Of a stretch of DNA of 24,210 nucleotides, positions 1,028 through 24,210 are shown one piece after another. Numbering within the stretch: position 1 is the first letter of the stretch; each line of letters begins with the position of its first letter. The translations under genes and the position numbers were made by a program. The stretch is from a virus. The notes below the pieces were generated by a model. The model was not told the origin of the DNA. It did no database searches and saw nothing but the letters and a program-made list of their open reading frames with translations. The DNA is taken from the IMG/VR virus record IMGVR_UViG_3300044630_006641, positions 1 to 24,210 of that record; one strand, 5' to 3'.

Positions 1028-1059
1028 AATCAACCGCAGTAATACAATCAACCACATAT

Positions 1060-1395: not shown

Positions 1396-1401
1396 TCGCC
1401 G

Positions 1402-2263: not shown

Positions 2264-2279
2264 AAGCGTTCCAGTACCA

Positions 2280-3169: not shown

Positions 3170-3208
3170 AGTTCGCGGTTGCTGGCCGCACTCCCTAATT
3201 ATCTGGGC

Positions 3209-3775
3209 ATGCGTCCTGCCACTTTCATATCACTGCTCGAAGCAGCGGTTCCTAACCCGAAGTTCCGGGAAGTGGCTCTATGGCTGAAGGTGCACCGCAA
3301 TGCGTGTGACGTACTCCCACCAGACTGGGAAGAACTGACGTTACCGCATGTTGAGATTGAGCACAATACGCCGCGCGTGCCCAAGCGATGTTATGATAAT
3401 GCGCTGGCACTGGCAAGGTTCGACCCACGTTACCAGTTATACGGAGGTTGCGTGGTATGGGACCACAACTACCAGCAGGTTGTGAATTTCGATATCAATA
3501 AGTACTGGGGTACCAGAACCTGTCGAATAGTGCACGCCTTTTGTGTCATTGATGGTAAGATTGCTGACCCAACGTTCGGACTGAACTCGGACGACCACTA
3601 CTTCGGAAAGCTTCTCGATCCCGCACAGTTTAAGGATGATGCGGCGCTGGAATCGTTCCTATATAAATGCTCCGCCGCCTACGATGCAACCTTCCCACAC
3701 GATGAAGCCGTGTTAACGCGCACGTGGGAAGAATGGAATGCAAAGACGAGCAAAAGCAGCACCAATAATACCTAA
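3209..3775 (+). CDS. Leader-tagged protein with Cys-His-Asp peptidase/transglutaminase-like arrangement
   Basis: 188 aa from ATG 3209, the first ATG of the frame (an upstream TTG at 3179 is possible). It begins MRPATFISLLE, the leader peptide shared with seven other ORFs in this window; a cut after Glu11 would release AAVPNP.... The rest contains PKRCYDNAL (Cys61), IVHAFCVIDG (His109) and KIADPTF (Asp120). Cys-Tyr-x-Asn, then His-Ala-aromatic, then Asp-Pro-Thr is the order of a catalytic triad in papain/transglutaminase-like folds. It could be a peptidase, deamidase or cross-linking enzyme; the activity is inferred. The stop overlaps the portal start (TAATG). If packaged in the head it would act in the host after ejection. 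Confidence 0.6.
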   Translation: MRPATFISLLEAAVPNPKFREVALWLKVHRNACDVLPPDWEELTLPHVEIEHNTPRVPKRCYDNALALARFDPRYQLYGGCVVWDHNYQQVVNFDINKYWGTRTCRIVHAFCVIDGKIADPTFGLNSDDHYFGKLLDPAQFKDDAALESFLYKCSAAYDATFPHDEAVLTRTWEEWNAKTSKSSTNNT

Positions 3776-5793
3776 TGACTAAGAATCTCGGCAAATCATA
3801 CTCGCTCTGGTCACTTGCAGGCTGGTTTAAACCGGCTCCAACCAATCTCAGCAAGCAGGAACGGGAAACGGTTAACCGTATGCAGAATGGTCTGTCGTCA
3901 CCATTGCAGGGTGGGATGCAGGAGTATTACATGGGGCAGACGTCACGGAACTCGGACCCACAACAGCACTTTGGAGAAATGGAAGAAATGGCTGGGCACG
4001 AGATTGTTGCTCCGGTTCTCGCCATTTACGCGGAAGAAGCGACGCAGCCAGACTCTTCAAACGGAAAGGTGATCTGGTACGAGTGTGATGATAGTGAGGT
4101 GGAGGAAGATCTCAACAAGATGCTGGAACGGGTCAATGCAGACGATGACGCCTATGCCATCCACTGGGACCTCGCTGCATTCGGTAACAGCTTTCGGCGG
4201 CTCCTGCGTACCGAGGCGAATGGTATCGAGCACATTGTACCGATCCCGGTTTCGCACATTCGCCGCATTTACGACCTCACTACCAAGCGCTTGCTGGGGT
4301 TTAAGTGGGCCGGGCACGAACCCATGCCTGAGCAAGCGGTTCGCCTGACCTCCGGCAGCAAGTCTGAGAACATTTTCCCACCTTGGGACTTTCTCCACTT
4401 CCGCCGCATTACCAGCCGAACAACCTCGGAGTCCGAGTACGGCACGTCCATGGTGGAGCACCTGTTCACGCTCTACCGTCGCATCAAGCTCTCGGTGGAT
4501 CAAATGGTAGTATACAGACTTCACGCCATGCCAAGCCGCTGGATTTGCTGGGTAGATACCGGCACACAGACAGCGGCAGAACAGTCGGATACGCTGACCA
4601 TTTATAGGAACTTCCTGCGATCCACCATGGCGCTCGATGAAAACAAGTTCGAAAGCCGGTTCAACCCACCGGCAATGGACTCCATCCTCTTTTTCCCGAA
4701 GCCAACCGGCGACGAATCGAAGATTGATCAGATGCAGGGTACCAACGATGTGCCAGATGTGCCAGATATTGACCTGTTGACCAAGATGTTCTTCGGTGGT
4801 GCACGCGTACCGCGCAGTTATGTTGGATTCGGCGAAGACGACGGAAGCCTTGCCAACAACTCCCTTGCCAGCAAGGATATTCGTTTTGCCCGGTTGATCC
4901 GGGTGCTCCGGCAGCCTGCCATCAGCGGATACGCCCGGCTGGCTGATATTCAGATGGTGCTCAAGGACAAGGACCCCAGCAAGTACAAGGTAACCGTGCA
5001 GATGAGCAGTATCTCCGCCATCGAGGATGAGGTGAAGGCCGCGACCATTTTGAAGCAGGCCGAGGTTGCCAACGTGGTCTCCGACATTTGTCAGAAGCTG
5101 ACCATTCCAAATAAGGAAATTATCGATCTCGTGTTCCGGGAGTACCTGCACGTTCCGCGCAAGTTTGCAGACGTGGCTAAACTGGCTGCCGCCGTGCAAC
5201 AGGTGGTTGGCGGACCGGAGGGTGCTCCTGGAGGCGGCGGGGGCATGAGTGGGATGCCGATGGGAGGTGGTGGCGGAATTGGTGACGATCTTGGTCTCCC
5301 ACCAGAAGAACCAGAGGGCGCTCCGGAGGTGGAGGTAGACGGTGACCAGCCACCGCCTATCGCCACGACCGGGCAGGAATCGGTAACGGCACTTCAGCAC
5401 ACTATGCTACTGGAATTGCGCACGGCCATTAAGGGGAAGCACAAGCAGCTCATTCCGGAGATGAAGCGCCTCTCCAACACCATGCGGTCCCTGTATCGCA
5501 TCCACGCGACCGGGCGGGTTAGCCTCGTTGAAACCAGCCGAGTGCTACGATCCAAGGACGCCCTGCCGACTGGCAGACGTCTAACCGAAGGCGCGGACGC
5601 GTCCACAATTTACAGTGGTACGGTTCTGACACCGGTTGGCCTCGCTGAGGCTGAGGGCAATACCACCGTGGCGGAGAGTCACCCCGCTGTAAAGGCCGTG
5701 CACGGGATGCGCAAGGCCGCGAGCGGATCGCAGCCGCTGACCGAGCAGGTCAAGGCGGGAAAGATTCGCGTTACCGCACAACTCCACGAATGA
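3775..5793 (+). CDS. Portal protein (T4 gp20-like)
   Basis: 672 aa. The portal forms the dodecameric DNA gate at one capsid vertex and nucleates head assembly. Family features: an N-terminal conserved block (EIVAPVLAIYAEEAT), the core AIHWDLAAFGNSFRRLL, a wing/stem region with YRRIKLSVDQMVVYRL, and FFGGARVPRSYVGFGEDDGS, a strongly conserved portal motif. About residues 480-530 are a Gly/Pro-rich low-complexity linker, followed by a helical tail of about 135 residues. The tail holds two Leu-Thr-Glu tripeptides (603-605 and 655-657), identical to the end of the leader peptides. The start overlaps the previous stop. The tail extension is longer than expected for a simple portal core. Confidence 0.88.
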   Translation: MTKNLGKSYSLWSLAGWFKPAPTNLSKQERETVNRMQNGLSSPLQGGMQEYYMGQTSRNSDPQQHFGEMEEMAGHEIVAPVLAIYAEEATQPDSSNGKVIWYECDDSEVEEDLNKMLERVNADDDAYAIHWDLAAFGNSFRRLLRTEANGIEHIVPIPVSHIRRIYDLTTKRLLGFKWAGHEPMPEQAVRLTSGSKSENIFPPWDFLHFRRITSRTTSESEYGTSMVEHLFTLYRRIKLSVDQMVVYRLHAMPSRWICWVDTGTQTAAEQSDTLTIYRNFLRSTMALDENKFESRFNPPAMDSILFFPKPTGDESKIDQMQGTNDVPDVPDIDLLTKMFFGGARVPRSYVGFGEDDGSLANNSLASKDIRFARLIRVLRQPAISGYARLADIQMVLKDKDPSKYKVTVQMSSISAIEDEVKAATILKQAEVANVVSDICQKLTIPNKEIIDLVFREYLHVPRKFADVAKLAAAVQQVVGGPEGAPGGGGGMSGMPMGGGGGIGDDLGLPPEEPEGAPEVEVDGDQPPPIATTGQESVTALQHTMLLELRTAIKGKHKQLIPEMKRLSNTMRSLYRIHATGRVSLVETSRVLRSKDALPTGRRLTEGADASTIYSGTVLTPVGLAEAEGNTTVAESHPAVKAVHGMRKAASGSQPLTEQVKAGKIRVTAQLHE

Positions 5794-5794
5794 T

Positions 5795-6516: not shown

Positions 6517-6520
6517 GTAC

Positions 6521-6549
6521 TTGACAGGCGTTCGTTCTTCTGCTAAGGT
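6521..6549 (+). promoter_or_regulatory. Promoter of the shared-spacer class
   Basis: TTGACA at 6521-6526, a 17-base spacer containing GCGTTCGTTCTTCTGC, and TAAGGT at 6544-6549. The ATG of the next gene is at 6557, 8 bases after the -10 element, so the expected transcript starts at or next to the start codon. The spacer is nearly identical to that of promoters at 12124, 22102-22130 (-) and 22544-22572 (-). The -10 is a poor match on its own; the shared spacer makes the call. Confidence 0.7.
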
Positions 6550-6556
6550 ATGCAGT

Positions 6557-6943: not shown

Positions 6944-6945
6944 CC

Positions 6946-7254
6946 GTGACTAACAGCATTCCTCCGCGTATGATTATTGCTATTGCAGATTCCAGCACCT
7001 CAAGCATCACGAACGGTGATGTTATCAATGGTGTTGTGCGGCATTGTTACACTCACGCCGATATTGATTCCAGTCATTGGTTGGCCGTAGTATACGACGA
7101 CGGCTCCGACGAAACGTTAACTGCGAACATCCTGAACCGCATTCAGGCGCGTCATAACCCTCGCCGATTTACGCATTCTGGATTACTGCCGAGGTTAGCA
7201 AAGCTTCCGGATCGTCCCAACCGGTGGCTAACTCCAACCTATGCAAAAATCTAA
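6946..7254 (+). CDS. Unknown small protein
   Basis: 102 aa from GTG 6946, two bases after the previous stop; an ATG at 6970 (MIIAIADSS) is the alternative. GDVINGVVRHCYTHADIDSSHWLAVVYDDGSDETL looks like a small beta-barrel, with a Pro/Arg-rich C-terminus. The stop overlaps the next ATG (TAATG), so it is probably translated in series with its neighbours. Function unknown. Confidence 0.55.
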   Translation: MTNSIPPRMIIAIADSSTSSITNGDVINGVVRHCYTHADIDSSHWLAVVYDDGSDETLTANILNRIQARHNPRRFTHSGLLPRLAKLPDRPNRWLTPTYAKI

Positions 7255-8486
7255 TGAAAAATGCCGTCGACGAGTACCAGAGACTGGTCTCCAAATCTCA
7301 GCAAGCGGGTTTGTCGATCCACAGGTACTGTATATCTGAGGGACGGGCGGGAACCTACGCCTCGGCGTTCTCCTACATTGCGTACTTGTCGAACCTCGCT
7401 GCAACACTGCGCCGCTTAGGTATAATTGGTCGCAAAGAGGCAATGACACTTTCAACGATTAACTACGAGGCACAGGACAAGGTGATCGCGTACACGTTGT
7501 CGCAACGCAAGCAACGGCGGAAGGATCGCATTGCCACAGTGGAGCGCATCTGCGCCAAGTTTCCGCAGGTGGTGAAGAATTCGTCACCGTGGTCGTTGAA
7601 GCTATTGGTAGACCCGATCCCGCGAGAGCTATGGGAGTCCCACGTGTGGCAGGAGTCTGAGCTCGGCCTTCCCATGTGCGTTGAAGAGCGCGTTGAGGCA
7701 CCATTGCCAGTTTCCTTCGCGCCCGAAGGAGATGAGGTGATCTACACTGGTCATGGCCGGTCGGTGCGAGTAACATGCGACGACGACGTGGACGGTCACG
7801 TGTTCCAGCGCGTGAGGGAGGAGCACAAAGAATTTTGCCAGGAACCGTTTACGGTGAAGGAACTTGAGCAATTTCACCGGGAGCTGAAGATTCCGAACCA
7901 TCGAGTAATACTGACACCGGACCTCGGTCACGGCCCCCTGCACGTGCTGATCAGTTGCTGCGCGGAACCAGAGCCGGAAAAGCCAGTCTCGAACCCTCCA
8001 AACTCCAGCGAGCGGTTCCACGAGCTGCGTGACTCTCTGACCGAGGACTATAGTAACCTTTCCATGCACATGGAAGGAGGTATCCTGCCACCGGAGGTTT
8101 CCAAGCTTATATTTGGTAACTGGTACGGAGACTTTACTCCCGCGCCGAAGCACCCCTCGCGAGCTACCGCAACACGACGCGTGCCGGAACCGAAGCCTGC
8201 GAGGCCGGAACCGAAGCCTGCGAAGCTGGCACCAACCAGCCTGCCTGCGTTTCAACCATCATCAGCTGGAATCAACAACCAAAAGGTGCAAGCCGTGGCG
8301 TGGGTTCTTGGGCGCATCAACACACTGACGCAACAGCTTCTAAACATTCCCGGTACCGTGCTGGAGGAGGTTACATTCCACCCCGGAGACTTTGAACGCA
8401 TGCAGGCGTTGTCCGTCTCCGCCTCCGACACGCTCACCAAGTTTGATGCCATTCTTGCTACCGTTCGAAACTTTCATAACCAATGA
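7254..8486 (+). CDS. Large protein of unknown function with Pro-Lys repeat linker
   Basis: 410 aa from ATG 7254, which overlaps the previous stop (TAATG); an in-frame start 30 bases upstream is less likely. The N-terminal 100 residues are helical and basic (TLSQRKQRRKDRIATVERICAKF), followed by a mixed domain with Cys-rich GPLHVLISCCAEPEPEKP. Around residues 312-330 two copies of a R/VPEPKPA unit form a flexible linker, followed by a helical C-terminus. The layout suggests an adaptor or DNA-binding protein, but no family is recognised. Its TGA overlaps the next ATG. Confidence 0.65.
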   Translation: MKNAVDEYQRLVSKSQQAGLSIHRYCISEGRAGTYASAFSYIAYLSNLAATLRRLGIIGRKEAMTLSTINYEAQDKVIAYTLSQRKQRRKDRIATVERICAKFPQVVKNSSPWSLKLLVDPIPRELWESHVWQESELGLPMCVEERVEAPLPVSFAPEGDEVIYTGHGRSVRVTCDDDVDGHVFQRVREEHKEFCQEPFTVKELEQFHRELKIPNHRVILTPDLGHGPLHVLISCCAEPEPEKPVSNPPNSSERFHELRDSLTEDYSNLSMHMEGGILPPEVSKLIFGNWYGDFTPAPKHPSRATATRRVPEPKPARPEPKPAKLAPTSLPAFQPSSAGINNQKVQAVAWVLGRINTLTQQLLNIPGTVLEEVTFHPGDFERMQALSVSASDTLTKFDAILATVRNFHNQ

Positions 8487-8641
8487 GTGTTCGCCGTCAT
8501 AAAGCTGTGAAGGCGTGCCAACGAGCTGAACGGGCCGAAAGCATCCGCTTCTGGTTGTCCCGGCTCCGTCCACTGGATTACGTGCTGATGCTCTTTTTCC
8601 TGCTCGGCGTTGTCATGATCGTTTACTGCCTCCTCCGGTAA
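8483..8641 (+). CDS. Small membrane protein
   Basis: 52 aa. It starts at an ATGA overlap with the preceding stop. The basic N-terminal half (VRRHKAVKACQRAERAE) would be cytoplasmic; residues about 32-51 (LDYVLMLFFLLGVVMIVYCL) are one transmembrane helix at the C-terminus. A holin or accessory lysis role is possible but unproven. Confidence 0.6.
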   Translation: MSVRRHKAVKACQRAERAESIRFWLSRLRPLDYVLMLFFLLGVVMIVYCLLR

Positions 8642-8661
8642 CATAGCATTCCTACAGATCT

Positions 8662-14509: not shown

Positions 14510-14956
14510 ATGCAAACTTTCCTACCACATCTTGAATTCACCAGCTGCGCGCAATGCCTCGACCGCCAGCGCCTTGGCAAGCAGCGCGTGGAGGCAAAGC
14601 AAGTCTACCTCGCGTTAACGCAACCCGGTTACGGCTGGCAGAATCACCCTACAGTTAAAATGTGGCGTGGGCACGAATACTGGCTGCTGCAGTACGGATT
14701 GGAAGTATGCGCCGAGTGGATTAAGCGTGGATATAACGACACACTGCAACGCTGGTTCGATAAGCAGCAGCAGGATTTGCACGTACCACTCGGCTTCACA
14801 CTTGACTCGAAGCCTGATATGCCGTGGCTCACCCCGTCCTTCTGCCTTTCCCACCGTTCTAATCTCATTCGCAAGCTTCCATCGCATTACGGTCCAATGT
14901 GGCCAGATGTGCCAAGTAACCTTCCGTATACTTGGCCTGTGACAATCGTCGGCTAG
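14510..14956 (+). CDS. Pyrimidine-dimer DNA glycosylase family protein (Pyr_excise-like)
   Basis: 148 aa. The N-terminus MQTFLPHLEFTSCAQCLDRQ, LGKQRVEAKQVYLAL, GWQNHPTVKMWRGHEYWLL and EWIKRGY follow the family that pairs with T4 endonuclease V (denV; PF03013) in annotation. T4 EndoV excises UV-induced cyclobutane pyrimidine dimers, using the amine of Thr2 and a conserved Glu. Here residue 2 is Gln, as in many non-T4 members, so the exact chemistry is uncertain. DNA repair fits its promoter class, shared with the helicase and the glycosylase-like frame. Confidence 0.7.
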   Translation: MQTFLPHLEFTSCAQCLDRQRLGKQRVEAKQVYLALTQPGYGWQNHPTVKMWRGHEYWLLQYGLEVCAEWIKRGYNDTLQRWFDKQQQDLHVPLGFTLDSKPDMPWLTPSFCLSHRSNLIRKLPSHYGPMWPDVPSNLPYTWPVTIVG

Positions 14957-14964: not shown

Positions 14965-15213
14965 ATGACAAGCACCGAGAAGAACCTGAATCCTACGCGT
15001 GTTATTCAACGTATCGATGAGGTGTTGCAAGGTGACGCCAAGTCCAGCGCCGTTTCCCACATTGGTCGGGCCTTGAATGAGTTGGCAGTTGCCTCCATGG
15101 CCGTGGAGGGGTCACCATTGCCTGCCACCCCGCCAACGCAGGATAATTCGGTCGCGTGGGCATTGCATCAGGCGCAGTCATGGGCGCATAAGGCTATGCG
15201 GGAACTTAAGTAA
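14965..15213 (+). CDS. Unknown small protein
   Basis: 82 aa from ATG 14965, 8 bases after the previous stop; a start at 14932 would lie inside the glycosylase gene. Mostly helical: TRVIQRIDEVLQGDAKSSAV and the C-terminus WALHQAQSWAHKAMRELK. No family recognised. It directly precedes the leader-tagged array. Confidence 0.55.
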   Translation: MTSTEKNLNPTRVIQRIDEVLQGDAKSSAVSHIGRALNELAVASMAVEGSPLPATPPTQDNSVAWALHQAQSWAHKAMRELK

Positions 15214-15221
15214 CTATTCAC

Positions 15222-15302
15222 ATGATGACACCAAGCACATTCACGCAGCTGACCGAGGCTGGGGAAGAGGTGACCGTTACCTCCCTGGGCTTCGGCGACT
15301 AA
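15222..15302 (+). CDS. Leader-only mini-ORF 1 (26 aa)
   Basis: ATGATG at 15222/15225, then MTPSTFTQLTE followed by only 14 residues (AGEEVTVTSLGFGD) and TAA. The leader is identical in sequence to that of the gene at 15311. A cut after Glu would release the 14-residue peptide. Either a packaged peptide, or the stump of a gene whose cargo was lost. The ending LGFGD recurs at 15710-15725, just before the 15736 gene. Confidence 0.55.
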   Translation: MMTPSTFTQLTEAGEEVTVTSLGFGD

Positions 15303-15342
15303 TTGTTCTCATGACACCAAGCACATTCACGCAGCTGACCGA
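15286..15342 (+). repeat. Leader-cassette direct repeat, copy 1
   Basis: 57 bases from TGGGCTTCGGCGACTAATTG to the leader's LTE codons. It covers the end of one frame (...LGFGD-stop), the spacer TTGTTCTC and the leader of the 15311 gene. Copy 2 at 15711-15767 differs at one base (A/G). Confidence 0.9.
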
Positions 15343-15694
15343 AACGTCAACCGACTGGGTTGGCAACAACGACTCTGGAGACTGGGAAGCAAGCAAAACT
15401 GAAGGCGGGCTTCTACTGCAGTTGGGAAGTGAGGCCGGTGGGCGTGATGTTACCATATACGCCAGAATTTTCAGGGTTGGGCAAACAGCTGGTCATTCGG
15501 ACGCGGTGGGTCGATGGATAAAGGGTGATAGGCCGTTATGGAAAGGTTCCCATGTATGTGACGGCGGTGAGGAGGGAGATGAGGAGTACGATGAGTATCA
15601 GGAAATGTTTGAGCTTTTGAACGATCACTGTTTCGAGGAAGTTTTCGTTAAATTGGGTGGTCGAACGGCCATGCAGCGTTTGCAAAACCGATAA
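15311..15694 (+). CDS. Leader-tagged acidic protein of unknown function
   Basis: 127 aa from ATG 15311. It starts MTPSTFTQLTE, then TSTDWVGNNDSGDWEAS.... After the leader it is strongly acidic, with a central beta-rich half (GGLLLQLGSEAGGRDVTIYARIF) and an Asp/Glu-rich stretch (GGEEGDEEYDEYQEMFELL). No fold is recognised. The leader is part of a DNA repeat, and between its stop and the next gene a remnant MASALGFGD frame is seen. If a head protease cuts after Glu11, the mature protein has 116 residues. Confidence 0.65.
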   Translation: MTPSTFTQLTETSTDWVGNNDSGDWEASKTEGGLLLQLGSEAGGRDVTIYARIFRVGQTAGHSDAVGRWIKGDRPLWKGSHVCDGGEEGDEEYDEYQEMFELLNDHCFEEVFVKLGGRTAMQRLQNR

Positions 15695-15710
15695 CTCATG
15701 GCTTCGGCCT

Positions 15711-15767
15711 TGGGCTTCGGCGACTAATTGTTCTCATGACACCAAGCACATTCACGCGGCTGACCGA
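15711..15767 (+). repeat. Leader-cassette direct repeat, copy 2
   Basis: Matches copy 1 (15286-15342) over 57 bases with one mismatch. It carries the LGFGD-stop end of a short frame, TAATTGTTCTC and the leader of the 15736 gene. Confidence 0.9.
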
Positions 15768-16095
15768 GGCACCAAACGAGGCCGCTGAGGCCGATCGGCC
15801 TGAGGTCGTGATTCACGTATGTAACCCGGACGACCGCTCCCTGTTTCTTGACGTCACAGTTCGGGCACACCTTGCTGCACCAGTTCGCAGCCTCGACGAT
15901 GTGGAGCTCGACCTGAACGGCGATCAGTACTGGGACATCTCCTACGGGTACGCGGGCGGTGGTGACGCTGATGGACGCCTTATCATCACCAACCCGGAAG
16001 GCGACGAAGGACCGTATGATGTGACAGATAAGGTGCTGGCAGCGCTGCAGAAGCCCGGCAAGGTTAGGTTCGGCTTCAGCCCGCAGGGTGAGTAA
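15736..16095 (+). CDS. Leader-tagged beta-rich protein of unknown function
   Basis: 119 aa, MTPSTFTRLTE then APNEAAEADRPEVVIHV. The body has alternating strands (PEVVIHVCNPDDRSLFLDVTV, VELDLNGDQYWDISYGYAGG, GRLIITNPEGDEG) and is acidic. It shares no visible similarity with the 15311 product beyond the leader. Predicted cut after Glu11. No family recognised. Confidence 0.65.
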   Translation: MTPSTFTRLTEAPNEAAEADRPEVVIHVCNPDDRSLFLDVTVRAHLAAPVRSLDDVELDLNGDQYWDISYGYAGGGDADGRLIITNPEGDEGPYDVTDKVLAALQKPGKVRFGFSPQGE

Positions 16096-16103
16096 TTATT
16101 TCC

Positions 16104-16199
16104 ATGACACCAAGCAGACTCACCATACTGACTGAGGCCGTTAACAGCTATGAGGCTCAGGATGACCTATGTGAGCTGGTCTGGCAGCTGTTGAAATAA
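16104..16199 (+). CDS. Leader-only mini-ORF 2 (31 aa)
   Basis: MTPSRLTILTE, then AVNSYEAQDDLCELVWQLLK and TAA one base before the baseplate-gene ATG. Upstream TAATTATTTCC-ATGACACCAAGCA repeats the arrangement of the other leader genes. The remaining 20 residues form an amphipathic acidic helix. Confidence 0.55.
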   Translation: MTPSRLTILTEAVNSYEAQDDLCELVWQLLK

Positions 16200-16200
16200 C

Positions 16201-18597
16201 ATGGCCACACCCGCAATTCAGTACACCGCCCGAGACTTCGCCTCCAATCTGGCGGCACTGCAGGATTACGTTCGAGCAAACTCGCCGGAGAACTGGAATA
16301 GCTTCTTTGCCGGAGACCTCGGTGAAGTGCTGGCTGAGCTCATTGCTTATGACGGGGCGCAGCTGAGCTTCATCGGCGACATGGCCGCGCTGGACTGCTT
16401 CCCCGGCACGCTCAAGCACCGTGAAGCACTCATCCACCTTTGCCACCTGGTCGGTTATCGCCTGCGCCGGTCCAGCACGGTTTCGTTAGCCTGTTACGCC
16501 CGTGCTGCCACCTCCCCGTCGCCGTCTGACCACGGGTACATCATTCCGAAGGGCGTGCAGGCTACCGGACGGGACGGCACCATCTGGGAGGTTGCCTCCG
16601 ACTGCATCATTGCGCCGGGCAACACCACGCCGTTGCGCATCGAACTCCAGTATGGCGACGTCATCGCCCCGCAGCTCCGTGCCGGGCAGACCGTGCAGGT
16701 TGTGGCGCTGGTTAAGCTTACCGTAGGTTCCGCCACGGCCACGCTCTGCCATCCGGACGGCACCCGCCTGAATGAGGCTACCTTCGGTCCGCGCGTATCT
16801 GCTGGCTCCATTCTCCGCATGACACAGGAGGTGCTGACATGGTCATCTACCGTGACAACGTGGGGAGGTGCCCCGCAGCCGCCCCGTGGTGAGTACGCCG
16901 TGATTGAGGCCGGGAAGCTCGCCAGCGACCTGCAGAATTACACGGTGCTGTACCTTGACCGCCCGTGGGATGGTGCCGCAGACTTTGTCGGTCAGTGGGT
17001 GATCGAGAACCGCAACATCATCATGTCGCAGGGTGAATCCCGGCAGGACGTGCTGACGCTGCCCGCTGGCACGAACCGTCCCGGGTATAAGGCTACCACG
17101 AGCTTCTACCCGGTTATTTCTGGAGACGTGGAGCCGTTCATCCCATCCGGCCAGCTTTCCACAGTCAACGGCGTACAGCTTGGGGCCATCGTTACCGTCA
17201 ACGGCGTGGCGTGGCAGGCGGTGGCCAACCTGCTCGCATGTGGTAGTGACCAGCAGGTGTACGAGTTCGACTTCGATGCGCTAGATCGGATGACCGTCAC
17301 ATTCGGCGACGGGCAGTTCGGCGCACTCCTGCCGGAGGGGGCGCAGATTACAATCTCCTACCGGACCGGTGGTGGTGCAGCAGGTAACGTGCTGCAGAAC
17401 GCCATTGATACCACGATCATCGGGCAGGTGGCCAGCCAGACCAGTACGCCGGTCTCCATTTCCATTTCCAACCCGTTCACCGTAGGTAAGGGTGGCAGCG
17501 AGCGGGAGTCCATCACCGAGGCCCGAACCGGCCTGCCCGCATTCGTCCGGGCCAACGACCGCGCCGTTTCGCCCGAGGACTATATCTCACTGGCCTCAGG
17601 GTTTAGTGATCCGGCTGCCGGGCGGATAAGGCTCGCGAAGGGCGTCCTGCACCGGAACGCGGTGCCACACGAGCAGAACATCGTCTGGCTGTACGCCTGG
17701 GTGTCCGGTCCGTCCGGGCAGTTAGCCTCTCCATCGTACGACCTCAAGCAGCGCCTGTTAGACTACATGAACGAGCGCAAGATGATGACTGATGAGGTAG
17801 TCGTGCTTGATGGTACGGTCGCCACCACGCCAGTCCAGCTTCGCATCCGCATGGTTACCGGTTCCTTCCCATCGGACGTCCTTTACCGGGTGCAGAACGC
17901 CATCAATGCAGTCTTCGCCGACCTTCAGCCGGGTGCCACACTGTACATTAGCCGTCTTTATGATGCCTGCATGGAGGTGACCGGGGTGCAGTACTGCGAC
18001 TGGCTCCTGCCGTCCACGGATGCCGTTCCAGCCACGGAGTTCGAGGTGGTTACCAACAGCCTCCAGCTGCCCGTTTACCTGACTATGACGGCCACCGGTC
18101 TGCTGGGAGACAACCACCTAACCGTCTCGGATACATCAAGCGTTGGTCCCGGTACCCGCATCTCAATCTTTCAGTACGGTGTGCAGCCGACCACGGCCAT
18201 TGTTGAATCCGTCACGGCCACGGTCATTACGCTACGCACCCCGTTGCTGGCCATGTACGCTATGACGGCCACGCTGATCATCGGCGACTTCCTGCCCCTA
18301 ATCTGGCAGTACGAGCGTCCGGTTCAGCTGTACGTGACATTCTCGTCCGACCCGGCGGCAGCCGCCGTGGCTACAGCGGGCATTAAGTTCCAGCTCAGCC
18401 GGTGGTTCGCCCAGGCCCTGCGCCCGGAACAGGCGTTGCGTCGGACCGACCTCCTTGCCGTGGTGGCCGGGGTGCCGGATGTGATAACCTGCGATGTGAA
18501 GATCGGGTCATCCACCTCCGTGCTGGAGTCCGTCACGCCCGGTAGTTACGAGCTGGTCACACTCGGTGGACTGGTGGTTAACGGGGTGATTATCTAG
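16201..18597 (+). CDS. Baseplate wedge protein (T4 gp6 / J family)
   Basis: 798 aa. The N-terminus YTARDFASNLAALQDYVRAN and the block FFAGDLGEVLAELIAYDGAQ followed by LSFIGDMAALDCFPGT and GYRLR are characteristic of gp6-type baseplate wedge proteins of contractile tails. gp6 rings hold the wedges together and drive the change of the baseplate on host contact. A central beta-rich section includes FGDGQFGALLPEGAQI, then VSPEDYISLASGF, another typical J/gp6 element. Somewhat longer than T4 gp6 (660 aa). It sits in the middle of the leader-tagged genes. GC looks higher than its small neighbours. Confidence 0.85.
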   Translation: MATPAIQYTARDFASNLAALQDYVRANSPENWNSFFAGDLGEVLAELIAYDGAQLSFIGDMAALDCFPGTLKHREALIHLCHLVGYRLRRSSTVSLACYARAATSPSPSDHGYIIPKGVQATGRDGTIWEVASDCIIAPGNTTPLRIELQYGDVIAPQLRAGQTVQVVALVKLTVGSATATLCHPDGTRLNEATFGPRVSAGSILRMTQEVLTWSSTVTTWGGAPQPPRGEYAVIEAGKLASDLQNYTVLYLDRPWDGAADFVGQWVIENRNIIMSQGESRQDVLTLPAGTNRPGYKATTSFYPVISGDVEPFIPSGQLSTVNGVQLGAIVTVNGVAWQAVANLLACGSDQQVYEFDFDALDRMTVTFGDGQFGALLPEGAQITISYRTGGGAAGNVLQNAIDTTIIGQVASQTSTPVSISISNPFTVGKGGSERESITEARTGLPAFVRANDRAVSPEDYISLASGFSDPAAGRIRLAKGVLHRNAVPHEQNIVWLYAWVSGPSGQLASPSYDLKQRLLDYMNERKMMTDEVVVLDGTVATTPVQLRIRMVTGSFPSDVLYRVQNAINAVFADLQPGATLYISRLYDACMEVTGVQYCDWLLPSTDAVPATEFEVVTNSLQLPVYLTMTATGLLGDNHLTVSDTSSVGPGTRISIFQYGVQPTTAIVESVTATVITLRTPLLAMYAMTATLIIGDFLPLIWQYERPVQLYVTFSSDPAAAAVATAGIKFQLSRWFAQALRPEQALRRTDLLAVVAGVPDVITCDVKIGSSTSVLESVTPGSYELVTLGGLVVNGVII

Positions 18598-18639
18598 CAT
18601 GGGTGACATCATCCGCATCGACCTTGCCATATGATCGCA

Positions 18640-18693
18640 ATGACTCCACGCCGGTTTATGTCTCTGATTGAGTCTGAGTTACGCTGTATATGA
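18640..18693 (+). CDS. Leader-only mini-ORF 3 (17 aa)
   Basis: MTPRRFMSLIESELRCI, then TGA, with an in-frame ATG 9 bases upstream. The leader pattern M-T-P-x-x-F-x-x-L-I-E is complete, but the frame closes six residues after it. Probably a gene broken soon after its leader. Its end overlaps ATG 18690 (ATGA). Confidence 0.45.
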   Translation: MTPRRFMSLIESELRCI

Positions 18694-18905
18694 GACCGAT
18701 GCGTTATCAGCAGCGCAATGGAGTATGCAACGATGCATGGTGGCGGTTTAAACCCGCACAGTGCGGCTGGAATTTTTATCGAGACAACCGACCAGACGTT
18801 CAGCATGGTCCCGATGGGGTAACTAAGGCAGCCCGAATTTTACCATTGTTGCGGCAGTCTAACCTAATTGTGGACACACCATTTCAGCAAAACTGGACAT
18901 CATGA
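18690..18905 (+). CDS. Doubtful 71-aa ORF
   Basis: MRPMRYQQRNGVCNDAWWRF..., Trp/Arg/Gln-rich, with no recognisable fold and no full leader although it begins MRP. It overlaps its neighbours as ATGA at both ends (18690 and 18902). It may be a real small gene, or the frameshifted body of the broken leader gene at 18640. Confidence 0.35.
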   Translation: MRPMRYQQRNGVCNDAWWRFKPAQCGWNFYRDNRPDVQHGPDGVTKAARILPLLRQSNLIVDTPFQQNWTS

Positions 18906-18943
18906 AGTTTGACGCCAAGCGATTGTTTCCTCATGATGCCCAC

Positions 18944-19390
18944 ATGAGGCCACTCGCATTTACTCAGCTGACGGAAACCGAATTCGTCACACATGGGAAC
19001 TATCGGATTCCGCGCCCGGTTCCAGTGGAGGCTGTGGTTGTTGACGGCGAGCGCCTGCAACCTGGCATTGCGCGAGGTGTTTCCACAATGTGGGTGCTGC
19101 GCAATGTGATGCCCACGGATGATCCGACATGGCCTGCCGTGTTCAACTACGTCGAGAGAAACCATTATGCGTCTGATCCGCAGTTCTGGAAGCGGTTTTT
19201 GGACTCGTGCAGCAAGAAGATCAAAACTCCCGTAAAGCTGCACATGGACCGACACGGCAGGCTGCTCTGTATCGACGGCCACCACCGGGTATGGGCTGCC
19301 GTGAAGCTTAGTCTTACAAGCCTGCCGGTTGTTTTCACCGAGCGATTGAAGCATCCACACCCGTCAGAGGACGGTGAGTTTGGCGTTTAG
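18944..19390 (+). CDS. Leader-tagged ParB-like domain protein
   Basis: 148 aa from ATG 18944, chosen because it places MRPLAFTQLTE at the N-terminus as in the sister genes. An in-frame ATG at 18902, which overlaps the previous stop, would add 14 residues. The C-terminal half has PVKLHMDRHGRLLCIDGHHR (His-rich turn at 111-115) and VWAAVKLSLTSLPVVF, the ParB/sulfiredoxin-fold pattern g..iDGhHR..A....g...ipv. This fold includes nucleotide-binding partition proteins, nucleases and phosphotransferases. The N-terminal half is unassigned. If packaged in the head, it could act on host DNA or nucleotides at once after ejection (inference). Confidence 0.55.
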   Translation: MRPLAFTQLTETEFVTHGNYRIPRPVPVEAVVVDGERLQPGIARGVSTMWVLRNVMPTDDPTWPAVFNYVERNHYASDPQFWKRFLDSCSKKIKTPVKLHMDRHGRLLCIDGHHRVWAAVKLSLTSLPVVFTERLKHPHPSEDGEFGV

Positions 19391-19392
19391 CT

Positions 19393-19851
19393 ATGAGACC
19401 AGTACAATTCATAAACCTAATCGAGCGCGGTGTTAAGCTGTATCACTCGTCCGGAGAGGTGTTCCCGAACGGCAAGCCGGAGTTTGATGCCTTTTATGGC
19501 GGCGAACAGTTCATCAAAGACTTTCCCAACGAGTTCGGTCAGCACCTTTACCAGATCACCCTTCCGGCCAGCGCTCGCGTACTGGACCTGAACGCCGGTT
19601 CGCCGGAGGCACGGCAGTTCAAGGCTGAGATGGCTCAGATAACGTGGCCGGATGATACGGAATACGCCGAGATGTTGCTGGCTGGAGACCCCGAGGCCGA
19701 GACCGACTTCTACGAAACGTGGACCGACAAGCACACGACCCTGCGCGTGATGCAGAAGCACCCGGAGTACGCCGCCGTACGGTATCAGGATGAGTACGTG
19801 GTGCCAGCGTCAACCACCAGCAAGCTGAAGGGGAAGAAGCTGCGGGGCTAG
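19393..19851 (+). CDS. Leader-tagged ADP-ribosyltransferase-like protein
   Basis: 152 aa, starting MRPVQFINLIE two bases after the previous stop. After the leader, VKLYHSSGEVF (His18), a loop, then HLYQITLPASARVLDLNAG resembles the opening strands of ADP-ribosyltransferase-like folds (lyHgt..., later vyev.lp..klld). Near the end, AAVRYQDEYVVPAS would supply the glutamate strand (Glu134). This is a weak, pattern-level match; the residues of the second motif are unclear. For comparison, T4 packages the ADP-ribosyltransferase Alt in its head. The gene converges on the helicase gene with only 14 bases between stops. Confidence 0.45.
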   Translation: MRPVQFINLIERGVKLYHSSGEVFPNGKPEFDAFYGGEQFIKDFPNEFGQHLYQITLPASARVLDLNAGSPEARQFKAEMAQITWPDDTEYAEMLLAGDPEAETDFYETWTDKHTTLRVMQKHPEYAAVRYQDEYVVPASTTSKLKGKKLRG

Positions 19852-19865
19852 GCGATCACTTGCGT

Positions 19866-22094
19866 TTAACGTGCTGCGCGACCCATGGCAAGGAAGGCTG
19901 GCCACCCCGACCATTCCGGATATTTGGACGGCTCGCTCGGCAGGCGTGGGTCCTTGCGATAGCTGGCCTTATACTCTGTGCAAGAGGTAATTCCGGCGGC
20001 AATGGTGGCGGATGCTGCCTCGACGATAGACGCGTACTTTGTAGGACGTTCAAGGAAAGCATCCCATCCTGGCCAGTCTGCGTAGTACCGTTCCGGGTCG
20101 CTCGGCAGGCGATTGTCGCTTTTAAATGCCTTGTTAGTATACTGCACGGAAGACTTAAGACGACAGGCAACAGCCGCTTTGGATGCCTCCTGCCATGTTT
20201 CATACTTTGGCTGCTTTTGCCCCTTCCCAAGGAAGGTCTCCCAGCCCGGCCAATCCGCATAAAAAGCAGTTGGCACAGCTGGAAGACGCAGGTCCTTGCG
20301 ATGCATGGCGCAGTTGTTGCCGGTGCCTTTTATATACGCCGTAGATGAACAAATCCCAAGTGCAACAGCCGCTTTGGATGCCTCCTGCCATGTTTTGTAC
20401 TTTGTAGGACGTTCAAGGAAAGCATCCCATCCTGGCCATCCTCCATGCGCGTAGTGTGTCGGCGGGGACTGCGGCAACCGGCAATCCGAAAGATATACCT
20501 GTCGGTAATGCGGACCGTTCGTAACGCCAAGTGCAACAGCCGCTTTGGATGCCTCCTGCCATGTTTCATACTTTGTTATACGTGCCGTCCGCCCAAGGAA
20601 GGCATCCCAGCCCGGCCAATTCACATAAAAAGTAACCGGCTCGCTCGGCAGGCGAGAAACCATGTGGCGCTTTGTCTTATAAGTCGTGGCAGACTCAATG
20701 CCGAGGGAGATAGCGGCAGCTGATGCCTCAGCCAAGGTGTACAACAGCGAACCATCCAGTTTGGCTGTAATGTGCCTTGCTGCTTTTACAATAACCTGCC
20801 GCAGAATACCACTTTCCACTGTGAGTCCCTGCGCGTTGTTCACGTTGCCGACCGCAACTCCCGCGTTATCGTCTGCTTGCGCATGTGCATGCATGCGCAT
20901 GGTTTGCGCAAGCGATGTATCCGCCTCGCACAGCGCTTGAAGCGTCGTGCCAACATGTCGATACGCCGACCGTGACAATTCGCCACCACGGGTGAGGGCC
21001 GGAATGACGATGTGCCCATACTTCTTGAGCGGATTGGCTCGGTCCACTCGGACGACGCGGCCACTGGCTTGGATGATGGTTCGCACCGATCCAACCGCTG
21101 ACATGAAGCAGATGGCGTCCATGCTTGGGAAGTCGATGCCCTCGTTCAGGCACTCGGCATACGTGACGATGATGGATTCGCTCGTTTGCACCAACCCGAT
21201 GATGCGAGCACGCTCGGTGGCCGGAGTGTCGCCTGTGATGGTATAGGCGTTGTACCCGGCAATAAGCAGGGTGCGGCGGAATTCGTCGGCCTCGGCGATG
21301 GTGGCGTGCTTACTGAGCAGTTTCTTGCACCCGGTCGCCTTGACGAACCTGGACAGCACGGTGATGAAGGCCCGCATTTTGGAATCCATGGAAAGTCTGC
21401 CCACTTCCACATCAACAGGGGACTCACCCACGAACACGTGAAACGGCAGGACGATGCCCGCATTCACAGCCTCGCGGAACGGCATGTCGTACACCCGCTT
21501 GCCGAACACCACTTCGTTATCCATGGAAAACCCTTGTTCTTCCTCATCAAATGCAACATGGTGCGGCGTGGCCGTCATGAACAGGCGCTTGCGGATGCTG
21601 ATGTCGTCGGTCAGCAAACGCCCAGCCACCTTGTCTGCCGACCCAGCCACGTGATGCGCCTCATCGAGCAGAGCCATATCGACCGTGTGACCGACCATCC
21701 CGGCAATCAGGGCTGGTACGCTGGCGTAGGTGGAGAATACGATCTTAGTGCCATGTTCGCGCAGGCACGTCTGGAGCACCCTCGGATCGGTTGTGTGCGA
21801 CACGGGTAGCTCCTCCTCCGAAACGTCATCCGGCTGTACGTTGCGACTGCACATCGCGATCCACCGGTCGAACTGCAACCCGTTGGCCTGGTACGTCTGA
21901 ATCAGCTGGCTGAGTAGCCCGATGGTGGGAGCGCATACCAGGACGACCTGCGCCTCCTGCTGCTGGATAGCCCACATGCCGACGAGGCTCTTGCCCCACC
22001 CCGTGCTGGCGGTCACCAAGGCCCGGTCGTGCGTTTTGAAGTGGCTGGCAATGGCGGCAAGGGCGACGCCTTGGGTATCGGGACGAGGTTGCAT
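19866..22094 (-). CDS. SF2 DEAH-box helicase with five C-terminal phage-integrase-type repeats
   Basis: 742 aa from ATG 22094, 7 bases after the -10 element; an upstream in-frame start (22235) would run through the promoter. Motif I TASTGWGKS (28-36), motif II LLDEAHH (DEAH 144-147), motif III FMTATPHH (TAT 174-176) and motif VI QASGRVVR (342-349) define a superfamily 2 ATPase related to type III restriction/UvsW-like helicases. About 445-742 hold five repeats of about 58 residues: an EASKAAVALGI helix, a variable stretch, a DxRLPSxP turn and WPGWDAFL. This resembles the integrase repeat unit (INT_rpt, PF14882) found next to phage integrases and helicases. Probable role in replication, recombination or defence evasion. 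Confidence 0.8.
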   Translation of the reverse strand: MQPRPDTQGVALAAIASHFKTHDRALVTASTGWGKSLVGMWAIQQQEAQVVLVCAPTIGLLSQLIQTYQANGLQFDRWIAMCSRNVQPDDVSEEELPVSHTTDPRVLQTCLREHGTKIVFSTYASVPALIAGMVGHTVDMALLDEAHHVAGSADKVAGRLLTDDISIRKRLFMTATPHHVAFDEEEQGFSMDNEVVFGKRVYDMPFREAVNAGIVLPFHVFVGESPVDVEVGRLSMDSKMRAFITVLSRFVKATGCKKLLSKHATIAEADEFRRTLLIAGYNAYTITGDTPATERARIIGLVQTSESIIVTYAECLNEGIDFPSMDAICFMSAVGSVRTIIQASGRVVRVDRANPLKKYGHIVIPALTRGGELSRSAYRHVGTTLQALCEADTSLAQTMRMHAHAQADDNAGVAVGNVNNAQGLTVESGILRQVIVKAARHITAKLDGSLLYTLAEASAAAISLGIESATTYKTKRHMVSRLPSEPVTFYVNWPGWDAFLGRTARITKYETWQEASKAAVALGVTNGPHYRQVYLSDCRLPQSPPTHYAHGGWPGWDAFLERPTKYKTWQEASKAAVALGICSSTAYIKGTGNNCAMHRKDLRLPAVPTAFYADWPGWETFLGKGQKQPKYETWQEASKAAVACRLKSSVQYTNKAFKSDNRLPSDPERYYADWPGWDAFLERPTKYASIVEAASATIAAGITSCTEYKASYRKDPRLPSEPSKYPEWSGWPAFLAMGRAAR
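20168..20575 (-). repeat. Near-identical DNA repeats inside the helicase gene
   Basis: A stretch of over 40 bases starting CAACAGCCGCTTTGGATGCC occurs at 20168, 20363 and 20534, almost unchanged, and encodes TWQEASKAAVA on the other strand. AGGACGTTCAAGGAAAGCAT also recurs (about 20042 and 20408). Identity at DNA level means recent duplication or gene conversion of repeat units. Confidence 0.85.
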
Positions 22095-22101
22095 GACGCG
22101 C

Positions 22102-22130
22102 AAAATAGCAGAAGAACGAACGCTTGTCAA
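22102..22130 (-). promoter_or_regulatory. Promoter of the shared-spacer class, for the helicase
   Basis: On the minus strand TTGACA (22130-22125), a 17-base spacer containing GCGTTCGTTCTTCTGC, and TATTTT (22107-22102). The helicase ATG is at 22094, so the mRNA should be leaderless or nearly so. Confidence 0.75.
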
Positions 22131-22166
22131 GTGGTCTTCGGCGGTACGGTGTGAAACTTCGCCCGG
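22109..22166 (-). repeat. Duplicated gene-end plus promoter, copy next to helicase
   Basis: 58 bases matching 22551-22608 with three mismatches. It spans the -35, the spacer and about 36 bases of upstream coding-type sequence. Confidence 0.9.
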
Positions 22167-22231
22167 ACGGCACTCCGTATGTTGCGGGCGGCGTGTTCCA
22201 GCCATTGTGCGCATGTCCATGACTGGTGATT
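22127..22231 (-). pseudogene. 3' remnant of a second copy of the 305-aa gene
   Basis: The frame directly after the stop of the 86-aa gene reads 34 codons ending VRAKFHTVPPKTT-stop. The 305-aa protein ends RRAKFRTVPPKTT at the matching place. There is no start codon, and the stop lies inside the -35 TTGACA. It looks like the tail of a duplicated gene that was kept because it carries the promoter, or the C-terminus reached by readthrough. Confidence 0.6.
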
Positions 22232-22492
22232 TCAACGGCGGGCAGATTCTTCGTCAGATTCAACCCAGACCTGACTGTCACCTTGCTTGAGCATCTGCAT
22301 CAGCGTGGCGCGAATGTGCTCTCGGATTTCAAATTCCTTGGCACGCGCCTCGGCTTCCGGAACGTCGCCGGGCTTCGCGCGTTCTTCAAGCGCCGCCTCG
22401 ATGGACGGGAAAACGTCAATGACTCGGTCGAAGATAATGTCGGTGGCGTTATCAACGGCGCAGTGGGAGATGGTGGCAGGTATTGTGGTCAT
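22232..22492 (-). CDS. Unknown small acidic protein
   Basis: 86 aa, MTTIPATISHCAVDNATDII..., then a long charged helix (ALEERAKPGDVPEAEARAKE) and a Met/Gln-rich stretch. The ATG overlaps the stop of the 16-aa leader ORF (ATGA). No family recognised. A DNA-mimic or adaptor role cannot be judged from sequence. Confidence 0.6.
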   Translation of the reverse strand: MTTIPATISHCAVDNATDIIFDRVIDVFPSIEAALEERAKPGDVPEAEARAKEFEIREHIRATLMQMLKQGDSQVWVESDEESARR

Positions 22493-22539
22493 AATGGTAG
22501 GTATCGGCGGACTTCGCGAAGCCGTGCTCTTGTTTTCAT
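22489..22539 (-). CDS. 16-aa basic leader peptide ORF
   Basis: Encodes MKTRARLREVRRYLPL. ATG 22539 is 4 bases after the -10 element and the TGA overlaps the next ATG (ATGA). The same promoter - short basic ORF - coupled gene layout is seen at 12124-12224. Confidence 0.45.
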   Translation of the reverse strand: MKTRARLREVRRYLPL

Positions 22540-22543
22540 GGAA

Positions 22544-22572
22544 GTACTAACAGAAGAACGAGCGCTTGTCAA
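22544..22572 (-). promoter_or_regulatory. Promoter of the shared-spacer class, for the 86-aa gene
   Basis: TTGACA (22572-22567), 17-base spacer (AGCGCTCGTTCTTCTGT) and TAGTAC (22549-22544). The stop codon of the upstream gene is inside the -35 hexamer, as at the helicase copy. Confidence 0.65.
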
Positions 22573-22608
22573 GTGGTCTTCGGTGGTACGGTGCGAAACT
22601 TCGCCCGG
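22551..22608 (-). repeat. Duplicated gene-end plus promoter, copy in the 305-aa gene
   Basis: Pairs with 22109-22166 (55 of 58 identical). It includes the last codons and stop of the 305-aa gene and the promoter. Confidence 0.9.
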
Positions 22609-23486
22609 CGCTTCTTCGCCTCCGTCTGCGCCCACGCCAAGGCCATATCGCGCTCTTCCACGGTCATGCGGCCAGTCATGGCTCGATCAAAGACGTCGGA
22701 GAGACCACGAGCTTCCTTCCAGTCTTTAAAGCTACCATACCGATCGATGTACTGCTTATGCGGCTCGCAGAGAATGGTAAGAAACCCAATACACAGCAGG
22801 GTATCAAAGAATGCGGCTGGCGTCAGTAGCTCCGGGTTGACAATAGTTGGCAGCACCAGTGCCCGCCGAAGCACGAAGAATCTGTCCACCCACTGCTTAA
22901 TGTGGGCGTGTCGCACTTTGCCTCCACGAATGAACCGCGACTCATAACTGACGCCTGCTGCCGTTGGAGCTTTGCCATGATGATTTTCGGTGACGGTGGT
23001 ATCTACGTAAACCTCGTGTGTTCGCATGATAAACGCCTTGGCCTTATCAATACTCTCCACGGCATGACTCGCTGCCGTAATATGCGGCACCCTGAACCGC
23101 CGCCCGGCCCGGTTTTCACCCCAAATAAAGTTAACAGACCGCCCCTGACAGGTTATGCGTCCGTCGAAGTTCACACCGTCATTGCGAACCAAGTCCAGCC
23201 GCACATCATACCCGTCGACTGTGAGGCTGCGGGAGGCAATAAACGGGCGAGTATATAGCATAATGGGGTGTGAATTAAGTGGTGCCTGCGGCACGAGTTC
23301 CACGTGCTTGTCGTCGCGATGACCGTCCCAGTCCCACAGGTTATTTACAACGCGTTCTGTGGGCCGCAGGCTAAAAGTGGTCGGTGAGAGGATGCTGGTT
23401 TGTGCAGAGCCAGCTTGCACCGGTCCTCCGATAGAGGGAGCGCTCCGGCGAGCGCCGTATGATGGCCAGTAGTTGCCAACCCTCAT
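22569..23486 (-). CDS. Unknown 305-aa protein
   Basis: ATG 23486 to TGA 22569, MRVGNYWPSYGARRSAPSIG.... The N-terminal 60 residues are Ser/Pro/Thr-rich and probably disordered. The middle is alpha/beta (ASRSLTVDGYDVRLDLVRND, RITCQGRSVNFIWGENRAGR). A hydrophobic helical segment (PAAFFDTLLCIGFLTILC) precedes DRYGSFKDWKEARGLSDVF and an Arg/Lys-rich tail. No family is recognised. It precedes the promoter driving the next gene, and its 3' end was duplicated next to the helicase gene. Confidence 0.6.
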   Translation of the reverse strand: MRVGNYWPSYGARRSAPSIGGPVQAGSAQTSILSPTTFSLRPTERVVNNLWDWDGHRDDKHVELVPQAPLNSHPIMLYTRPFIASRSLTVDGYDVRLDLVRNDGVNFDGRITCQGRSVNFIWGENRAGRRFRVPHITAASHAVESIDKAKAFIMRTHEVYVDTTVTENHHGKAPTAAGVSYESRFIRGGKVRHAHIKQWVDRFFVLRRALVLPTIVNPELLTPAAFFDTLLCIGFLTILCEPHKQYIDRYGSFKDWKEARGLSDVFDRAMTGRMTVEERDMALAWAQTEAKKRRAKFRTVPPKTT

Positions 23487-23515
23487 GCTCGGTGGGCCTA
23501 CATATCACACCACAA

Positions 23516-24210
23516 TTAAGAACGCCTCCGACCTAGCGCCTCGTTAATGCCCGGAGGCAGCTCGGTGTAGCAGGCCTTGGACTCCATGGCCTTGGCCCGG
23601 CGAATGGCCTCATCGAGGCGAGGGTAAATGCGGTCGCGACATCCCTGCGCCACGGCCTTGCGCACTTCCACAATCAGCGTAATGAGCTTCTCGCGCAGGA
23701 TCTGGTTGGACTCCAGCTGGATGTTATGCGTGATCAGGCAATCTGCCGCCCACACCCGTTCGCTCTTGCCGCCGTTGTCGGAGCGGATGAGCGTCTTGCT
23801 GACAAGGAGCAGTTCGCTGAACAGTTCCTGTTGCAGGGCCTCGACGCTCTTGCGCTGCCCACGAGGCGTTGGGTTTTCCGTATCTGCTCCAATGATCGTA
23901 CCATCACCCCAGACGCGGATGTCGTCGTCCGTACCAGCACCGGGCTCCGGCGGGGCGTAGTACCGCTGCAGAAACTGCTGGCAGATGGTCATGTTGTTTG
24001 CGCCATCGGCCCCGGACAGGATGATACACCGGTCGATGACACCTCCTCCGACGCGGCGGCGCTCGATATGCAGGCCGAGACCGTGACCACCGCAGGCGTC
24101 TCCGTGCGCCTTCAAGTCACCGTCATGGAGTTGCTTATCTTCAATAACCGGTTGATGCGTCCCCTTCCGGATAAGGGCGCGGATGGTGCGGACCCGGACA
24201 GCCTGTGCTT
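23516..24210 (-). CDS. Unknown protein, 5' end beyond the window
   Basis: The frame has no stop up to the right edge (first complete codon at about 24208), so the start lies outside; a TTG at 24115 is not needed. At least 231 residues are visible. It has GGHGLGLHIERRRVGGGVID, ILSGADGANN, a Pro/Gly-rich linker (YYAPPEPGAGTDDD) and a helical C-terminal half (QRKSVEALQQELFSELLLVS, REKLITLIVEVRKAVAQ) ending EALGRRRS. No family is recognised. It is probably in one transcription unit with the 305-aa gene 29 bases downstream. Confidence 0.65.
   Translation of the reverse strand, partial: AQAVRVRTIRALIRKGTHQPVIEDKQLHDGDLKAHGDACGGHGLGLHIERRRVGGGVIDRCIILSGADGANNMTICQQFLQRYYAPPEPGAGTDDDIRVWGDGTIIGADTENPTPRGQRKSVEALQQELFSELLLVSKTLIRSDNGGKSERVWAADCLITHNIQLESNQILREKLITLIVEVRKAVAQGCRDRIYPRLDEAIRRAKAMESKACYTELPPGINEALGRRRS

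Follow-up and report, generated by a model that had tools for sequence, protein, structure and literature searches.

An 11-residue N-terminal leader of the general form M-x-P-x-x-[F/L]-x-x-L-x-E begins eight open reading frames (ORFs) of a 24,210-base virus record, IMG/VR entry IMGVR_UViG_3300044630_006641 (referred to in its entirety as the window), and we read it, with a probability of roughly 85%, as a T4-type capsid-targeting propeptide that has its own consensus and an enlarged, recombining set of cargo proteins. The eight leaders (Table 1) have exactly the coordinates and residues given in a preliminary description of the sequence, and the L-[T/I/L]-E ending at residue 11 holds for all eight. 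The DNA pattern ATG-NNN-CCN-N6-TTY-N6-CTN-NNN-GAR occurs seven times in the window, compared with zero occurrences in 100 dinucleotide shuffles; the eighth leader, at 16104, lies outside this strict pattern because Leu replaces Phe at position 6. Five leaders (3209, 15311, 15736, 18944 and 19393) are followed by real bodies, in ORFs of 119-188 amino acids (aa). These five longer products have no matches in Pfam, and the 18944 product alone among them has weak ParB-like PHROG matches. Isolated phages yielded no tblastn match to the 3209 and 19393 products, nor did sequence searches of the PDB with three tagged proteins give any.

The leader is a lineage-wide system common to relatives of the window, the contigs being fragments of uncultured phages. 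The nearest records, both from IMG/VR, are G014 (99.98% over 12.4 kb) and G002 (88-100% over aligned pieces). Homologues of 3209, 15311, 15736 and 18944 in G002 keep the leader: that of 3209 has an identical one, as it does in G014, and that of 15311 has diverged (69% DNA over the body) with its leader unchanged. The 15736 gene has homologues in G002 (leader MTPSTFTQLTE) and, more distantly, in G009 (leader MNPKDFSKLVE). A degenerate leader scan of IMG/VR returned 23 stretches, many from one contig group (G001 of 61 kb, G003 of 41 kb, G004 of 50 kb and others). G001 holds 13 matches to a relaxed leader pattern, compared with zero for the reversed control, and together with G002 it carries about two dozen tagged ORFs, some very short. 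Across 12 contigs (440 kb), a leader profile gave 66 matches of at least 14 bits, compared with an average of 0.0 in whole-set shuffles (n=5) and zero in reversed sequence; since the profile was trained on leaders of the same contigs and the contigs overlap, 66 is not a tally of independent genes, and it is the empty controls that carry weight. Tagged bodies of at least 20 aa form 33 families that have the leader alone in common and show no BLASTP similarity to one another at E 1e-3; some of these families may still be distantly related.

Relatives of tagged genes either retain the tag or bear another of the same form, and upstream starts are absent or not conserved for most leaders. No upstream in-frame start was found for 15736, 16104 or 19393, and an in-frame TTG lies 10 codons ahead of 3209; start uncertainty concerns 16 of the 66 leaders, which have more than 40 open codons upstream. 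The consensus is lineage-limited, because the tag was not found in a more distant relative, G011 (capsid protein 54%), and G010 (capsid protein 65%) has a few Pro-less forms alone, such as MNTHQFVRLLE and MNLNHFLLLVE. Likewise, no repeated MxPxxFxxLxE was seen in the parts examined of two other gp23 phages that rank among the nearest: 49 kb of the 595-kb phage LR756511 and 41 kb of Listeria phage LIS04. Where the pattern turned up once in an unrelated IMG/VR contig, it is apparently a chance match or belongs to some other context, and MTPESFMELIE in G015 (L008) was rejected as the same tag, its ORF starting upstream with a tag of its own, MIKIKFFKE.

The prohead protease that the preliminary description had suggested seeking is present, as a gp21-type enzyme, in the collinear relative G001, beside a gp23 with L-x-E↓A sites (the arrow marks the expected cut). 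Positions 1-4861 of G001 are collinear with window positions 19125-24210 (97.8% over aligned pieces). The first 126 bases of G001 are identical to the end of G002, which is from the same metagenome, so the two very probably adjoin in a single genome. At G001 49937-51646 (L062:9937-11646), a 569-aa protein combines an S77 prohead protease domain with a charged scaffold-like region behind it. It matches the protease family PF03420 (E 3.3e-10, 34.9 bits against a cut-off of 27), the T4 gp21 structure 5jbl (E 9.1e-6) and the PHROG head maturation protease (1.6e-25). When the Peptidase S77 motifs are aligned with 5jbl, LEHPE lies over the catalytic His region, where that chain has Ala (presumably the H85A construct), and the catalytic Ser motif GVSSRGGGSL lies over GVASRGLGSL. 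A protease-scaffold fusion is also suggested by open frames of 610-680 aa in four relatives, and Listeria phage LIS04 has an annotated peptidase of 560 aa at the corresponding place. The gp23-type capsid protein (G001 51705-53150; 1.5e-48) has the propeptide sites RLAE↓A, SLTE↓A and GLDE↓A. Among five relatives whose capsid proteins are 54-98% identical to the reference, the first site is L-A-E in all five, the second [L/I]-x-E↓A in all five and the third L-D-E↓A in four. The proteases themselves have an L-x-E-like site near the N-terminus in four of five cases (PLFE, SLTE, SLVE, PLIE), and T4 gp21 similarly bears LIE at residue 9 (PMC9026906). No relatives of the capsid protein were found in bacterial and archaeal genome contigs.

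Immediately upstream of the protease stand two tagged G001 genes (48440 and 49183), in the place that genes 67 and 68 have upstream of gene 21 in T4. The products of T4 genes 67 and 68 are core proteins cut up by gp21 (PMC5694885), and individually the two tagged genes may well encode prohead core proteins. Applied to the tag as a whole, this arrangement would suggest that it marks components of the prohead core or scaffold, which are degraded or kept for head assembly, instead of injected effectors. We consider this improbable: the set of bodies is varied and differs from one close relative to another, and with an ADP-ribosyltransferase domain and a weaker acetyltransferase match among them the bodies look more like accessory effectors than core parts. 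The ADP-ribosyltransferase domain (ART-PolyVal, above the Pfam cut-off) starts at residue 13 of G001_16515, directly behind the tag. The acetyltransferase (GNAT) match, in G001_42110, has E values of 1.3e-4 and 4.3e-4 and exceeds the cut-off of one of two models. Most tagged bodies searched have no database match. No fold could be assigned from AlphaFold models, which were too poor for both the 3209 product (mean pLDDT 39.5) and the 19393 product (pLDDT 64.7). A Foldseek search of the latter against the PDB gave nothing below E 1, with a RES toxin complex second at a non-significant E 3.4; a by-eye guess that 19393 is ADP-ribosyltransferase-like was dropped, given the poor model and the lack of a significant Foldseek match.

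Alternatively, the leader might have no function as a peptide and be a side effect of DNA duplication or of a mobile promoter or start cassette. Indeed, the leaders at 15225, 15311, 15736 and 16104 have DNA in common over about 52 nucleotides (nt; 75-94% to the reference copy), including an upstream AT-rich box, and so are recent copies; recombination junctions also fall at leaders. The remaining window leaders (3209, 18640, 18944 and 19393) agree more strongly as peptides than as DNA. A strict filter that requires the key residues and leaves codons free admitted 41 distinct leader DNAs. Pro3 is present in 41, Phe6 in 40 and Glu11 in 41, and position 9 is Leu in 37, Met in two and Ile in two. 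Pairwise comparison of the four key codons (3, 6, 9 and 11) gave identities of 0.88 and 0.99 at the first and second codon positions, which are fixed, and 0.47 at the third, which is nearly free. Additionally, an orthologue of 15736 in G009 has 5 of 11 leader residues identical and still fits the pattern. Because key residues are kept by differing codons and the pattern persists in G009, a functional peptide is favoured over a regulatory DNA element, and selection appears to act on the leader peptide rather than on the DNA. The 66 profile matches against empty controls also speak against a duplicated or mobile DNA element as the whole explanation, which we regard as very unlikely. An AT-rich box resembling TAA[C/G/T]TATT stands 5-12 nt ahead of many leader ATGs, both in the window (15208-16138) and in relatives, and no Shine-Dalgarno-like site can be discerned in front of the leaders. 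The box may serve as a late promoter or as an unusual start signal.

Comparison between relatives places recombination at the boundary between tag and body. The bodies of 19393 and G001_890 have 96.5% DNA identity from the codon after Glu11, their leaders agree at 22 of 33 positions and their upstream DNA is unrelated, so that the same body bears a different tag, MRPARFMQLTE, in G001. For G001_22662 and G003_16567, the upstream DNA (96.7%) and leader (27 of 33) are common and the bodies are unrelated. Homology between 18944 and G002_19154 begins 3 nt ahead of the leader ATG, which favours the start at 18944 over the upstream ATG at 18902. With junctions at the tag, a leader and its body thus act as separate modules, each open to exchange. 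A single 195-aa ORF of G003 (L065:13949-14533) corresponds to two neighbouring tagged genes of G001 (39870-40405) and has an internal NRFTSLTE remnant. The fused ORF also occurs in G008 with the second tag retained internally, a natural gene fusion. The three short window ORFs (17, 25 and 31 aa) are probably remnants. In G002, the leader position matching 15225 continues into the body of the 15736 gene. The 18640 ORF matches the beginning of a 166-aa gene in the relative G004, MTPRRFISLIESELRCIW..., and so looks like a truncated remnant; at its site, directly after the baseplate gene, G002 has an additional tagged 194-aa gene (MNPTTFIQLTE...).

At the level of sequence, we take as established the tag, its spread, the constraint on the peptide, the protease with aligned His and Ser motifs, the L-x-E sites and the junctions. 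From these we infer the following route for the tagged proteins. The N-terminal part of the leader (Pro3, Phe6 and nearby hydrophobics, probably on one face of a short helix) would dock tagged proteins on the prohead core, most likely through the scaffold-like region fused to the gp21-type protease. Once the shell closes, the protease would cut after Glu11 at [L/I/M]-x-E, as expected for the capsid protein, and the freed bodies would be retained in the head and then ejected with the DNA, possibly with roles against host defence or in take-over of the host. The cargo set would be changeable, bodies gaining the tag and tags being swapped by recombination at the leader. In T4, Asp at the last tag position stops processing and leaves targeting unaffected (PMC9026906); by analogy, the MNPFQFISLID family would be packaged uncut.

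The proposal in the preliminary description that this phage has its own capsid-targeting code for cargo is supported by the tag, the gp21-type protease and the L-x-E sites; it falls short for three of the eight ORFs, which are too small to be plausible cargo. Of the four observations named there as refuting it, three were open to a check by sequence (no fitting protease, relatives of the genes lacking the leader, real starts upstream in most cases), and none of the three held. Further points weigh against a capsid-targeting propeptide. The residue after Glu11 is Thr in 9 of the 33 families and Ala in 8, compared with mostly Ala at the capsid sites, and a few unfiltered leaders end in Asp or miss the Glu (MTPSRFISLVS). 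Neither a prohead protease nor gp23 was found on the window record, itself a fragment, and the link to the protease runs via collinear relatives. The targeting half is unlike the T4 tag. An amphipathic-looking N-terminal peptide on many unrelated proteins would suit any sorting signal, but an address to the membrane, to another virion part such as the tail or to an intracellular phage compartment is the least probable explanation, given that the invariant L-x-E end, for which a compartment or membrane signal has no need, is the expected cleavage motif of the lineage's own protease family and recurs in the capsid propeptide.

Internal head proteins of T4 carry the tag MKTYQEFIAE, and Mullaney and Black (1996) reportedly described this capsid targeting sequence (CTS) for IPI, IPII and IPIII. 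As the preliminary description had maintained, the tag reported here differs from that of T4. Codons for MKTYQEF open two T4 genes, and the aromatics of this peptide stand at different distances from the cleavage site; the [L/I]-x-E end alone coincides, and Pro3 and Phe6 are without T4 counterparts at the same spacing. Aligned on the cut, the aromatic is at P6 here and at P4 and P7 in T4, so the targeting half is a different code, and the tag is a functional analogue of the T4 tag, not a sequence homologue. The CTS of the three T4 proteins is reviewed in PMC9026906 and PMC3012670; of its 10 residues, 4 and 7 mainly direct targeting, and 8 and 10 processing (PMC9026906). Diverse internal proteins of T-even phages share only this leader (PMC3012670, PMC12373910). 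Like the CTS, the leader is a propeptide of about 10 residues on otherwise unrelated small proteins, ends in the gp21 motif [L/I]-x-E, precedes bodies that vary between relatives and belongs to phages with gp20/gp21/gp23-type heads. Unlike the CTS, it has the consensus MxPxxFxxLxE, 11 residues and an invariant Pro3, its at least 33 cargo families are scattered through the structural region, and the protease is fused to a scaffold-like region.

Other phages provide looser parallels. T4 Alt is a packaged and ejected ADP-ribosyltransferase that acts on host RNA polymerase (PMC9026906), and the tagged ADP-ribosyltransferase domain is comparable in activity; it belongs to a different family (Pfam ART-PolyVal), and the Alt propeptide has 7 residues (PMC9026906). 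In SPN3US and phiKZ, inner head proteins have N-terminal propeptides that are cut by a gp21-related protease and are thought to be targeting sequences (PMC5694885). The likeness lies in the N-terminal propeptide, its cleavage here being predicted, and in a gp21-related protease in the same lineage, whereas their propeptides often exceed 100 residues with the motif A/S-x-E, compared with 11 residues and L-x-E here. The N-terminus of P1 DarB suffices to send a foreign protein to the capsid (PMC9024508). The P1 Dar proteins have no consensus among them (PMC9024508), unlike the strict consensus common to many proteins here.

The principle is already known from T-even phages; the novelty here lies in the consensus and the lineage, in how large the tagged repertoire is and in the visible exchange of tags. 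Our literature search, of incomplete coverage, found no report of an MxPxxFxxLxE tag. A differing tag of an uncultured lineage would escape a homology search with the T4 tag. Through the tag, at least 33 protein families, of which nearly all lack a match in the databases, can be recognized as probable head-packaged, injected proteins of the first moments of infection, and thus as directly testable candidates for anti-defence and take-over functions. In T-even phages, many ip genes were discovered by detecting the targeting signal, and Ip1, Ip2 and Ip3 each inhibit particular GmrSD restriction systems (PMC12373910). The injected arsenal of a phage could similarly be read off from sequence alone via its tag, and the tag and scaffold may offer a second, orthogonal pair for loading proteins into phage heads, with natural examples of tag exchange. 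We give even odds to the wider idea that a short capsid address code is particular to each gp21-bearing phage lineage and changes along with scaffold and protease, serving an open cargo bay with recombination at the tag/body junction and about two dozen injected effectors per phage.

Table 1. Leader-bearing ORFs and associated features (window coordinates, except for the last row, which refers to contig G015)
Feature	Position	Strand	Description
Tagged gene, body of no known kind	3209..3775	+	188 aa; leader MRPATFISLLE; directly precedes portal gene
T4-type portal protein (gp20 family)	3775..5793	+	Pfam Portal_T4, E 1.1e-20
Four direct DNA repeats	15208..16138	+	about 52 nt each; span stop codon, AT-rich box, ATG and leader
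Tagged short ORF, probably remnant or recombination scar	15225..15302	+	25 aa; leader MTPSTFTQLTE
Tagged gene	15311..15694	+	127 aa; leader MTPSTFTQLTE
Tagged gene	15736..16095	+	119 aa; leader MTPSTFTRLTE
Tagged short ORF, doubtful as cargo	16104..16199	+	31 aa; leader MTPSRLTILTE
Tagged ORF, apparent truncated remnant	18640..18693	+	17 aa; leader MTPRRFMSLIE
Tagged gene, C-terminal part weakly ParB-like	18944..19390	+	148 aa; leader MRPLAFTQLTE
Tagged gene	19393..19851	+	152 aa; leader MRPVQFINLIE
MI[K/R]IKxFxE ORFs in G015	8863, 15978, 16456, 16840, 18712 and others

The gp20-family portal places the window in the T4-type head lineage; its other products include a baseplate protein, a tail tube-like protein, a terminase-like protein and an endolysin. 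In G015 (L100/L101, IMGVR_UViG_3300033143_005935; 28% guanine-cytosine content), whose gp21-like match is below the Pfam cut-off, an N-terminal sequence of approximately MI[K/R]IKxFxE is repeated on several unrelated ORFs (Table 1). It is possibly another lineage-specific packaging tag and a hint at per-lineage codes.

Beside the tagged cluster, window positions 14510-14956 encode a pyrimidine dimer DNA glycosylase (Pfam PF03013, E 4e-26; T4 DenV family) that is itself untagged. Compared with G002, window positions 5793-8660 are a patchwork in which near-identical blocks alternate with non-matching ones. Between the 3209 homologue and the portal, G002 also has an extra 355-aa ORF (L005:1559-2626) whose cysteine/histidine repeats are HNH-like. 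A 1285-aa ORF (L004:2557-6414), lying upstream of the window's region, carries a long array of GNxxNxGxxCQISG-type repeats and is a candidate tail-fibre or adhesin protein.

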